64,000 nt of DNA, taken from contig NZ_CANMZM010000003.1 of assembly GCF_947502395.1 (NCBI RefSeq), positions 772,709 through 836,708 on the forward strand, read 5' to 3'. The notes below the pieces were generated by a model. It searched no databases and was not told the DNA's origin. It saw only the letters and a program-made list of their open reading frames with translations. Position 1 is the first letter of the stretch. Each line of letters starts with the position of its first letter. A program made the position numbers and the translations under genes. Positions 2,018-24,529 of this stretch are shown here, piece by piece. Source of the DNA: an uncultured Erythrobacter sp. GTDB lineage: Bacteria > Pseudomonadota > Alphaproteobacteria > Sphingomonadales > Sphingomonadaceae.

Positions 2018-2353
2018 ATGACAATCAAAGTGACCTTTATCGATCCCAAAGGATCGCCTGTGGCATGTGAAGGCGAGGTGGGAGACAATTTGTTGAAGCT
2101 TGGTCAGGCTGCCGGGCTCCCGCTTGAAGGGACGTGCGAGGGGCAGATGGCGTGCTCCACTTGTCATGTGATTGTCGCGGCGCAATGGTTCGATAAACTC
2201 GGCGAGGCTTCCGAAGAGGAAGAGGACATGCTCGATTTTGCAGCTGGCGCTCGACGCACCTCGCGCCTGTCATGCCAGATTGACCTTACCCAAGAGATGG
2301 ACGGTTTAACCGTCAGCGTTCCGGGCGAAAGCCACGATGCAAGAGGCCTGTAA
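2018..2353 (+). CDS. [2Fe-2S] ferredoxin, adrenodoxin type
   Basis: A 111-residue electron carrier of the Isc/adrenodoxin ferredoxin class. The four cluster ligands are visible as C40-x5-C46-x2-C49 (CEGQMACSTC) and C86 (RLSCQ), the standard spacing. The acidic stretch EEEEDMLD after the third ligand is the usual partner-docking region. It starts 4 bases after the cysteine desulfurase stop, which points to a shared transcript and a role in Fe-S assembly or in reducing a nearby oxidoreductase. Length matches the family. Confidence 0.93.
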   Translation: MTIKVTFIDPKGSPVACEGEVGDNLLKLGQAAGLPLEGTCEGQMACSTCHVIVAAQWFDKLGEASEEEEDMLDFAAGARRTSRLSCQIDLTQEMDGLTVSVPGESHDARGL

Positions 2354-2540
2354 GAAGCTCAGCTAAGGAGCCCAATGAGGGGCCGCGAGCTTCTGAAGAC
2401 GGGAATTATAACGATCCTGTCTGAATAGGCGATTAAGCCAATCCTAAACAGTGGTAAAATTTCCCAATCCTTGTGTTTGGGCCCACTTCGCGTGTCTGGC
2501 TGATGTGTAAAAACCCCTAAATTCTGCCGTTTTTCGAGTT

Positions 2541-2556
2541 TGGCACGGTGTCTGCA
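2541..2556 (+). promoter_or_regulatory. Sigma-54-like promoter (-24/-12)
   Basis: TGGCACGGTGTCTGCA matches the RpoN consensus TGGCAC-N5-TTGCA with one mismatch (C for the first T of TTGC). GG at 2542-2543 and GC at 2554-2555 are exactly 10 bases apart, the spacing sigma-54 requires. Transcription would begin near 2567, about 60 bases before the first of four small peptide genes. No activator site was identified upstream. Confidence 0.5.
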
Positions 2557-2626
2557 AGGCAGTTGGCATACAGCGGAAACAACCCGCAAATGACCAAAGT
2601 AACCTTATCAGACCGGAGACCGAACC

Positions 2627-2734
2627 ATGACCAACACACTGAACAACTTCGCCGCAGCTGCTTTCTCAATCATCGTTTCAACTAGCCTGCTTGCCTACGC
2701 AATCGTTCCGGCAAGCCCCACAATATTTGCTTAA
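2627..2734 (+). CDS. Tandem hydrophobic micropeptide, copy 1
   Basis: A 35-residue peptide of unknown function: polar N-terminus (MTNTLNN), an alanine-rich hydrophobic stretch long enough for one membrane helix (about residues 8-27), then the conserved tail PASPTIFA. The ATG is preceded by CCGGAGAC as a possible ribosome site. It is the first of four head-to-tail paralogues, and the pattern NN-(L/F)-x-AAAFS-x3-(S/T)-x-SL-(L/F)-AYAI-x-PASP-x2-FA is shared by copies 1-3. Conservation at protein level despite different codons supports real translation. I do not recognise the family. Confidence 0.7.
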   Translation: MTNTLNNFAAAAFSIIVSTSLLAYAIVPASPTIFA

Positions 2735-2775
2735 TCTCAAGTACCACAAACGCACTCACTTAAAGGAAATTCAAA

Positions 2776-2883
2776 ATGACTATCGCTCAAAACAACCTTC
2801 TCGCCGCAGCCTTTTCAGTCGCAGTGACCGCAAGCCTGCTCGCCTACGCTATCCTTCCAGCAAGCCCCGCTGCTTTTGCCTAA
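2776..2883 (+). CDS. Tandem hydrophobic micropeptide, copy 2
   Basis: A 35-residue paralogue of the preceding peptide, starting 41 bases after its stop. It begins MTIAQNNLLAAAFS, has one predicted membrane helix containing SLLAYAI, and ends PASPAAFA. AAAGGAAA upstream of the ATG is a plausible ribosome site. Synonymous differences from copies 1 and 3 are spread along the gene while the motif is kept, the pattern expected of selected coding sequence. Function unknown. Confidence 0.75.
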   Translation: MTIAQNNLLAAAFSVAVTASLLAYAILPASPAAFA

Positions 2884-2923
2884 TTGCTGGTAAGATAAAG
2901 CTCTAAATCAAAGGCCCCTTACA

Positions 2924-3031
2924 ATGACCATTGCCACTAATAACCTCCTCGCCGCTGCTTTCTCAGTTGTTATCTCGGCTAGCCTGTTTGCCTATGCCAT
3001 CGTACCCGCCAGCCCACTTGGTTTCGCCTAA
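2924..3031 (+). CDS. Tandem hydrophobic micropeptide, copy 3
   Basis: A 35-residue paralogue, 40 bases after copy 2. It begins MTIATNNLLAAAFS, has a single hydrophobic helix with SLFAYAIV, and ends PASPLGFA. It is closest to copy 2 (same first four residues and NNLLAAAFSV). No strong ribosome site is visible; the upstream sequence is AAAGGCCCCTTACA. Function unknown; a small single-pass membrane or secreted peptide by composition. Confidence 0.72.
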   Translation: MTIATNNLLAAAFSVVISASLFAYAIVPASPLGFA

Positions 3032-3079
3032 TCGCTGACGGGTTCCGGAAGCCCCCGACCATAATGCCGGAGACCCAAA

Positions 3080-3184
3080 ATGCCCCGAACCAATACCCTC
3101 TTCGCCGCCGCCCTTTCCGTCTTCTCAACCACCGCAGTCTTTGCCTCCGCGATAATCTTAGGGAACCCCGGCATCCTCGCTTGA
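3080..3184 (+). CDS. Tandem hydrophobic micropeptide, copy 4 (divergent)
   Basis: A 34-residue peptide, 48 bases after copy 3, and the most divergent of the four. It keeps N-T-L-F-AAA-L-S-V near the N-terminus and a hydrophobic helix, but the C-terminal PASP tail is changed to LGNPGILA. CCGGAGACCC upstream of the ATG is close to the leader of copy 1 (CCGGAGACCG). A terminator follows 30 bases after the stop, which closes the four-gene unit. Confidence 0.65.
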   Translation: MPRTNTLFAAALSVFSTTAVFASAIILGNPGILA

Positions 3185-3214
3185 TCCGCTAAAGGCACAC
3201 AACAGTCCCCTTAA

Positions 3215-3258
3215 GGGCGCATCGGCTCCTCTCCCCTATGGCCGATGCGCCCCTTTTT
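3215..3258 (+). terminator. Rho-independent terminator after micropeptide array
   Basis: GGGCGCATCGGC at 3215-3226 pairs perfectly with GCCGATGCGCCC at 3241-3252 (12 bp, 14-base loop), followed by a run of five T at 3254-3258. There is no T-run on the minus side, so it acts on plus-strand transcription and marks the end of the micropeptide operon. Confidence 0.88.
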
Positions 3259-3322
3259 CTGGGGCTCGCGCATTGCTTCATTCATTCGAAAATTTGGATG
3301 TGACGCGGGAGAACTATCGCTG

Positions 3323-3688
3323 TTAATCGTCAGAGAGTTCCGCGCTGAGGTCATTCAACGCTTCATCCAGCTCGATACTTTGACGCACCTTCTCGATCAC
3401 TCTCCAGGGAGCCATCGGGAGCAGTTGTTTCGCGCGTTCGCCGTCATTCGACAACAGCACAAAGGGTATATGCAAGTCGTGGAGATGCTGTGCGATTGCA
3501 GTGCTTGGACCGTCCAGCAATGTGAAGTTGAGGGTAGCGCAGTCCGGTCTGGCATCTGCGATCATCTCTTTCGCCTGGTCAGTAGATCGAGCGATGCCTG
3601 CCACGATGTGGCCTGCATCCTCCACGGTGTAGGAGATGTCTCGGGCGATCAGAACATCGTCTTCTATGATCAGAACTTTGAGCGCCAT
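3323..3688 (-). CDS. Single-domain response regulator lacking the phospho-acceptor Asp
   Basis: A 121-residue stand-alone receiver domain with no output domain. The acidic pocket E9-D10-D11 (IIEDD), the switch serine S80 (FVLLSND) and a lysine near K100 (VIEKV) are present. The residue aligned to the phosphorylated aspartate is N54 in CATLNFTLLDG. Related proteins usually read LxD(V/I)NLxDG here. Established knowledge is that such pseudo-receivers signal without phosphorylation or act as sinks or adaptors; which applies here is unknown. It is convergent with the micropeptide operon and divergent from parC. The ATG at 3688 is the only sensible start. Confidence 0.82.
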   Translation of the reverse strand: MALKVLIIEDDVLIARDISYTVEDAGHIVAGIARSTDQAKEMIADARPDCATLNFTLLDGPSTAIAQHLHDLHIPFVLLSNDGERAKQLLPMAPWRVIEKVRQSIELDEALNDLSAELSDD

Positions 3689-22727: not shown

Positions 22728-24233
22728 CTAAGCTGCATTGTCGATGCCGAGGTCGCTCAGCTTGCGATAGAGCGTAGAACGCCCAATCCCAAGCCGTCGG
22801 GCGACCTCGGTCATCCGTCCTCGATAATGACCGATGGCCAAGCGGATCACATCGGCCTCGATCTCTTCAAGCGGGCGCAGATTGCCGTCCTCTGTGTAGA
22901 GCATCACACCTACACCTTCATGCTGAGCCGAGCGGGTCGAGCATTCTAGTTCACCGATCATTTCGGAAAGCTGTGGGAAGCTGTCGGCGGTCAGCGTATC
23001 GCCCTCGCAATAAACGGCCGCCCGGAACAGGACAGATTGCAACTGACGCACGTTGCCCGGCCAGTCATATGCGGCAAGGAGCGCAAGTGCGCTGTCAGAA
23101 ATTGACAGATGCGTCAGACCGGGTTGCTCACCAATGCGGGTGAGAAAATGCCGGGTGAGGGCCGGGATATCGCCGGTGCGCTCTCGCAAAGGTGGCAGTT
23201 GCACGCGGGTGGCACCGAGCTTGCCTGCGAGGGCTTTGTCAAACACACCGCCATCGACAAGCTGCTGGAGGCTCATATTGCTGGCTGACAGAATACGGAC
23301 ATCGACGCGGAAGCCGTGAGCGGCACCAACCGGGCGCACGATACCGGTCTCAAGCCCATCAAACAGGCGCTCTTGTACAGCTATGCTCAGCCGATCGATC
23401 TCGTCCAAAACAAGAGTGCCACCATCGCAATGCTGAAGCGCGCCGATCTGACGGTCAAAAGCACCGGGGAAGGCGTTGGGCTCGTGGCCGAACAACACAG
23501 ATTCGATAGAGTTTGGAGGAACGCTAGCGATATTGACGATGCGCAGAGACTCTTTGGAGCGCGGTGACGCGGCATGCATGGCACGCATCAGCATCTCTTT
23601 CCCGGTCCCGCTTTCGCCTTCGATTAGCGAGTGGTTGTGACCTCGGGCCGCCTTGGCGGCTTGCGCGAGAGCGGTACGAAACGGCGGTGCCGTGCCGATC
23701 ATCGCGTCGAAATCGAGGCTCGCCGACATCTTCTCGGTCAGTGGAGCAAGCTCATCGCGTGGTGCTTCTCTCGTGGTGACCGCGCGCAAGGCTTCCATCA
23801 GCCGGTCAGGAGAGACTGGCTTCACGAGATAGTCACTGGCCCCCGCACGCATCGCTTCGACCGCAAGCAAAGGAGAAGCGCTGGTGGTAAGCATGAGAAT
23901 AGGGAGTGCAGGTCGACGCTCTTTAAGCTCGGCTATAAGCGAACATGCATCATCGCCTGGGACCCATTGATCGAGAAGGATAGCAGAAAGCTGCATCCCT
24001 TCGCGTGTGCCCAGCATTGCGATGGCAGTCTCCGCATCACTGGCAACGACCGTGCGCCAGCCGTCACGCGCGGCGATTGCAGAAATCAAGCGACTTTGGG
24101 CGGGCTCATCATCGATGAGCATGACGATGCGCGTATCGAGGTCCGATTCGTCGTGCAAATCTGTGCCACCCGCACGAGCGTCATCGGTGTGTACGCCCGA
24201 CAAATACTCAGGGTGTTCATCGCTTTGCGCCAT
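22728..24233 (-). CDS. NtrC-family response regulator with degenerate sigma-54 loop
   Basis: About 501 residues: an N-terminal receiver with the phospho-Asp in ILLDQWVPGDD and lysine in YLVKPVS, an AAA+ domain with Walker A GESGTGKE and Walker B GGTLVLDEI, and a Fis-type helix-turn-helix (MTEVARRLGIGRSTLYRKL). The sigma-54 contact loop, normally GAFTGA, reads NAFPGA, and the helix normally FREDLYYRL reads FDKALAGKL. Proteins lacking GAFTGA, such as TyrR, act with sigma-70 instead. Start chosen at MAQSDEHPEY (24233); the frame is open to 24296. Divergent from the CoxIV/pnt group. Confidence 0.85.
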   Translation of the reverse strand: MAQSDEHPEYLSGVHTDDARAGGTDLHDESDLDTRIVMLIDDEPAQSRLISAIAARDGWRTVVASDAETAIAMLGTREGMQLSAILLDQWVPGDDACSLIAELKERRPALPILMLTTSASPLLAVEAMRAGASDYLVKPVSPDRLMEALRAVTTREAPRDELAPLTEKMSASLDFDAMIGTAPPFRTALAQAAKAARGHNHSLIEGESGTGKEMLMRAMHAASPRSKESLRIVNIASVPPNSIESVLFGHEPNAFPGAFDRQIGALQHCDGGTLVLDEIDRLSIAVQERLFDGLETGIVRPVGAAHGFRVDVRILSASNMSLQQLVDGGVFDKALAGKLGATRVQLPPLRERTGDIPALTRHFLTRIGEQPGLTHLSISDSALALLAAYDWPGNVRQLQSVLFRAAVYCEGDTLTADSFPQLSEMIGELECSTRSAQHEGVGVMLYTEDGNLRPLEEIEADVIRLAIGHYRGRMTEVARRLGIGRSTLYRKLSDLGIDNAA

Positions 24234-24529
24234 ATATTCGGCCCTGATTCCTTCAAGCCCCGGCCATCGCCCCGGGGTGAGACGTGTTGTTGGCATAAAG
24301 GAGGCGGGTAAAGACGGAATTAAGGCTGTTGCGAGTTGTCACTCTTCAGACCATTCTCTGTTCGGTTCGGAACAACAAACACCCGTGATGGGTTGAGCAA
24401 GTGCTTGCCCTTCGATAGTGGGCTACGGGAACAAATGACGAGCGATCACATTCCATTCGCAACACTGTTCGATTTGGGGCGCGATTGAAGGATCGTTCGA
24501 GGGAAAGTTAGCTAAAGGGACAAGTTACA

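Follow-up and report, generated by a model that had tools for sequence, protein, structure and literature searches.

In the papers cited in this work, the regulon of PspF in Escherichia coli consists of the psp operon and pspG (PMC9239133, PMC2763126); apart from psp, no PspF target other than pspG is described as known (PMC9239133). PspF is held by PspA and freed on stress (PMC9239133), and psp operons with duplicated PspB genes have been noted (PMC11237479). Here we compare these systems with an array of four micropeptide genes in a 64,000-nucleotide stretch of DNA from an uncultured Erythrobacter sp., hereafter the window. Like PspG of E. coli and Yersinia (PMC9239133), the micropeptides are encoded away from the psp operon and are under PspF control, which is predicted here. 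Unlike PspG, they are 33–53 aa long with one predicted helix, are arranged in tandem at between one and three loci in a genome, and usually share an operon with a PspC gene. Like PspB and PspD, they are small proteins of the (predicted) Psp regulon with genes near PspC, whereas these genes lie outside the psp operon and lack a Pfam model match: none of 39 members matched the PspG, PspD, or PspB Pfam families at E 0.01. The micropeptides are presumably also too short to hold the cytoplasmic part of PspB. They are best read as analogous, not homologous, to PspG, PspD, or PspB. YohP of E. coli is likewise a very short membrane protein tied to stress and phage shock (PMC12719787); unlike YohP, which is reported as an inducer of the phage shock response, the micropeptides look like outputs of PspF. 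We found no published description of these micropeptides in the searched literature, outside which most subscription journals fall. The PspF regulon is of a known kind; what is new is a family of tandem micropeptides that is predicted to belong to it and is accompanied by an additional PspC. In many genomes of a single bacterial family, psp-type promoters precede these micropeptide genes. If our reading is true, the widespread response to membrane stress would have an output arm that has escaped annotation, the PspF motif could be read in these alphaproteobacteria, and the role of tiny membrane peptides under envelope stress could be studied in a compact system.

The array comprises four head-to-tail open reading frames on the forward strand at 2627..2734 (copy 1), 2776..2883 (copy 2), 2924..3031 (copy 3), and 3080..3184 (copy 4), each with its own ATG and encoding 35, 35, 35, and 34 aa, respectively, with gaps of 41, 40, and 48 bases. 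The original prediction, made from the DNA letters, had described four near-equal frames with a spacing of 40–48 bases and a terminator closing the unit, and all of this was borne out. The intrinsic terminator (3213..3259, forward strand) is a hairpin with a main stem formed by 3215–3227 and 3240–3252, followed by a run of five T, and its fold is highly stable (z = −4.69; none of 200 shuffles equally stable). A simple terminator scan of the array region found none; the 12-base loop exceeds the limit of 8 set in that scan. Copies 1–3 are 66–77% identical to each other and carry the proposed motif NN-x-x-AAAFS...PASP, whereas copy 4 (MPRTNTLFAAALSVFSTTAVFASAIILGNPGILA), with identities of 38% and 44% to copies 1 and 3, respectively, has neither NN nor PASP, and the motif does not extend to it. 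The four frames are real paralogous genes, of which copy 4 has diverged. Clusters usually have two or three copies, so that the window, with four, exceeds the norm, a point absent from the prediction; among 76 named-genome clusters, 58 have two copies and 16 have three. The array is flanked on one side by a 2Fe-2S ferredoxin gene (PF00111) and on the other by a topoisomerase IV/gyrase subunit A gene (PF00521), before which lies a weak response-regulator match (PF00072, below cut-off). The ferredoxin or topoisomerase neighbors are again present in eight more of the fetched stretches, which come from four genomes, including Erythrobacter longus.

The prediction had placed the peptides in no recognized family, and the four window copies indeed gave no match to Pfam and NCBIfam up to E = 1; 39 members gave none to PHROGs at E 0.01. 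Homologs were found in relatives, as the prediction had proposed to check. A four-row profile recovered all four copies and a second locus in the same genome (contig C1), reached E values down to 3.8e-15 in another genome of the genus, and at E ≤ 1e-4 had matches in 31 of the 37 genomes of the genus, our own included. In 24 genomes that belong to other families of the order, this profile reached E 0.018 at best. With a 39-row profile at E ≤ 0.001, matches were obtained in 100 of 396 order-level genomes and 17 of 84 genera; all 100 genomes belong to one family, and 41 of them are of the same genus. At least one genome of the genus (G002) had no peptide match with this profile, while PspA and PspF are present in it. 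When named genomes were scanned, 79 loci were retained, with the titles that give a genus naming Erythrobacter, Porphyrobacter, Qipengyuania, and Altererythrobacter and the rest being broader MAG titles; peptide 3 has a counterpart with 94% identity in E. longus DSM 6997. A longer member type of 48–53 aa (MYSFF...) was also seen, standing last in the micropeptide run at four loci (L007, L017, L019, and L053).

The prediction of paralogous membrane micropeptides is in line with the AlphaFold model of copy 3, which has a helix at residues 3–26 and a lower-confidence tail (mean pLDDT 84.1). The peptides combine a hydrophobic core with an A-x-A motif, both of which are features of signal peptides, and one reading is that they are exported precursors, still under PspF control, in which the helix would be a signal peptide cut by signal peptidase I after A-x-A to free a decapeptide, I[IV]PASPxLxA, active in the periplasm or outside. 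Among the 211 members with the core motif, position −3 holds A (207) or S (4), position −1 holds A in 207, and position −2 is variable (Y, T, A, G, S), all of which would suit such processing, and a single one of 39 members had a weak Pfam match to the Phr signal peptide (E 0.0054). However, the net charge of the N-region is 0 in 180 of the 211 members and −1 in 11 (+1 in 19 and +2 in 1), making it a poor Sec signal, the Phr match is marginal as well as single, and A-x-A also fits the end of a helix. We consider the exported-precursor reading unlikely, and a version in which PspF-driven precursors release secreted or periplasmic I[IV]PASPxLxA decapeptides to be sensed through the PspC-type protein of the operon is less probable again; if true, the phage-shock response in these bacteria would have a peptide-signal output. 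From A-x-A onward, the net charge is 0 in all 211 members; 195 of them end in A and 16 in V, and 26 members have no charged residue whatever. In copies 1 and 3, A10, S14, and S18 are spaced four apart and could form a face on which helices pack. The predicted helix and the residue composition suit a membrane anchor whose tail is exposed, with a signal peptidase substrate fitting less well.

Upstream of copy 1, we identified a sigma-54 promoter, TTGGCACGGTGTCTGCA (2540..2556, forward strand), which had escaped the original prediction, as had the PspF-type enhancer site and the second operon with a PspC gene described below. A sigma-54 site is present in 40 of the 41 clusters of a first set and in all 76 scorable clusters of the named set (80 groups less one duplicate and three cut by contig ends), where it lies 59–86 bases 5′ of the ATG; these two sets and the 159 fetched loci considered below overlap through shared genomes. 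The exception in the first set is a PspC-linked cluster of genome G021 (L027/L051), which has no recF match nearby and whose upstream region looks as if rearranged. Directly 5′ of the promoter is a shared stretch with the consensus GnGAATTCCGCCATTTTTCGAGTT. Of 29 psp promoters of the genus, 20 score above the null maximum for this stretch, and of 14 psp promoters from other families none does; the own psp promoter is also not above this maximum.

About 100 bases 5′ of the promoter, the clusters share a partly palindromic enhancer with the consensus ATCCCAACnnTTGGnAAAAnTTCCCAA. It lies at −100 to −102, counted from TGG as are the enhancer positions below, in the 40 clusters used to build a matrix, which was trained on micropeptide clusters only. 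In the window, the predicted PspF-type enhancer site (UAS), ATCCTAAACAGTGGTAAAATTTCCCAA, is at 2441..2467 (forward strand), −100 from TGG, with a matrix score of 35.6, compared with null maxima of 5.4 (454 segments of the window) and 10.3 (800 shuffles). In the named set, the score exceeds the shuffle maximum in 75 of 76 clusters, and the remaining one has a run of N at this place. Eleven sigma-54-like sites of the form TTGGCACN6TGCW are found in the own genome. The highest matrix scores belong to the two micropeptide operons (35.6 and 32.1), followed by the psp promoter next to pspF (21.2), and none of the other eight sites scores above 0.5. Across the genus, a sigma-54 site was detected at 28 of 30 psp loci, and all 28 have the enhancer (11.9–31.2), centered on one of three positions, about −101, −91, and −81, which differ by single helical turns. 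One further psp promoter of the genus scores 21.7, bringing to 29 of 29 the scorable psp promoters above the shuffle maximum of 10.3. Psp locus L088 is cut by a contig end, with no sigma-54 site detected, and locus L100 of G002 has the enhancer and TTGGCAC with a weaker −12 element. At psp loci from other families, where 5 of 19 were left out for want of a PspA start, 10 of the 14 scorable loci exceed 10.3, with the enhancer at −110 to −126 and thus further upstream than in the genus; four are below. The best stretch in the pspF-pspA region of E. coli K-12 scores only 1.8, at −91. A scan of 21 genomes with the joint pattern gave many chance-looking matches, in the genus and in other families alike.

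Based on the shared enhancer, the array is very likely under PspF control, and the prediction had rightly listed envelope stress as one option. It could be argued that another sigma-54 activator drives these operons and that the likeness to psp is incidental. The own genome has both pspF and rpoN and gave nine sigma-54 activator domain matches, six of them strong. The activator beside psp is PspF (TIGR02974, 482.5 bits, cut-off 443.55), and the five other strong activators score 181–280 bits with this model; three of these pass the NCBIfam cut-offs for NtrX, NtrC, and PEP-CTERM response regulator, respectively, and the other two stay below every cut-off, with FlbD and NtrC as their best models. 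Any of these five could be the activator, and, among the genomes tested, in which rpoN was found in 13 of 13 and PspF in 12 of 13, G008 (95% complete) keeps the peptides, PspC, the promoter, and recF while PspA and PspF were not found. On the other hand, the enhancer is absent at the eight other sigma-54-like sites of the own genome and present at its psp promoter, as it is at every scorable psp promoter of the genus, which makes control by another activator quite improbable. The G008 cluster (L284/L035) has an enhancer score of 20.3, the lowest of the 40 matrix clusters. A response regulator encoded in the window itself (22728–24296, reverse strand) has a sigma-54 activator domain; the GAFTGA loop of this domain has the sequence NAFPGA, and the protein therefore may not activate sigma-54.

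In the commonest locus type, the promoter and micropeptides are followed by a gene for a PspC-domain protein. Among the 159 fetched loci, which were not deduplicated, 119 have a PspC-like gene and 115 have recF, each time together with PspC. The second operon of the own genome is of this type, with the promoter, peptides of 36, 36, and 53 aa, and a 70-aa PspC-domain protein (PF04024, E 1.2e-12). The last peptide gene and the PspC gene overlap, stop with start, and recF is divergent upstream. The same arrangement of promoter, enhancer (20.3–34.7), peptides, PspC, and recF was observed at seven of nine further loci, three of the genus and four of genera g27, g54, g70, and g75. Of the remaining two, L287 stops at a contig end, and L290 has a weak promoter and no PspC or recF nearby. 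The window locus is of an orphan type with no PspC gene. At the level of sequence, the genes, the sigma-54 promoter, the enhancer in common with psp, and the linkage to PspC are established. The psp operon also begins with a gene for a small protein of about 50–70 aa (6863–7030 of L077 on contig C2 of the own genome, and psp loci L083–L111), with the pattern F..SKLG.A..ASI.AM and E-x-A at the end; 14 members had no NCBIfam match, and no homology of the micropeptides to this family was found (hhalign probability 0.1%). After pspC (L077, 8819–11656) are about eight tandem small proteins of 84–121 aa, each with an apparent helix and a similar C-terminal part, and the two that were scanned had no match over the Pfam cut-off.

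The prediction had also raised a type I toxin-like function. Short, hydrophobic, tandem single helices, stress-induced if controlled by PspF, could in principle be small toxins of the type I or TisB kind that depolarize the membrane and slow growth under stress, and YohP is an example of such a peptide acting so (PMC12719787). The array, however, is preceded by an enhancer-dependent sigma-54 promoter, and a consensus scan, which is no proof of absence, found no sigma-70 promoter-like site for an antisense RNA on either strand in 2350–3330. The conservation of the peptides in most genomes of the genus also speaks against a toxin, and protection fits better because of the linkage to PspC and the psp-type enhancer. 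There is accordingly little probability left for a toxin.

We think it likely, then, that the array is a PspF-regulon operon of inner-membrane peptides serving as envelope-stress effectors, the effector role at the membrane being itself probable. Its induction by inner-membrane stress would be expected from the established Psp model, in which PspA holds PspF and stress frees it. On inner-membrane stress, PspA would release PspF, which would bind the predicted site at 2441–2467 and fire sigma-54 RNA polymerase. Large numbers of the peptides, each with one helix and almost no net charge, would then be produced and would enter the inner membrane, with the tail I-[IV]-P-A-S-P-x-L-x-A most likely outside. 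The peptides may oligomerize via the small-residue face of the helix (A10, S14, S18), may partner PspC-type proteins, their operon mates at the main locus, and would support the membrane as small effectors. The tandem copies would raise the dose and permit mixed assemblies.

The protein is under purifying selection. The dN/dS across the copies, a check proposed in the prediction, is about 0.11 for copies 1–3 (pooled pS/pN = 0.689/0.183), well below 1, and is 0.26 (pS/pN = 0.324/0.102) for 1169 non-independent pairs of 37-aa members at 2–20% DNA divergence. Between copy 4 and copies 1–3, pN is 0.365 and pS is 0.75, which is saturated. Of 166 members in the named set, 164 have a Shine-Dalgarno-like sequence upstream, and all 221 distinct members start with ATG, which the script favored. 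A non-coding reading, in which the frames are chance products or part of a conserved RNA, could draw on a short 5′ leader hairpin conserved in some clusters and has a negligible chance of being right given the strong constraint at the protein level and the Shine-Dalgarno-like sequences. This hairpin is GC-rich and lies near the predicted transcript start, in the leader at about 2567–2626 of the window; its pattern was found in 15 of 27 clusters labeled PspC-linked versus 2 of 13 others, among which the second operon of the own genome, being unlabeled, was counted.
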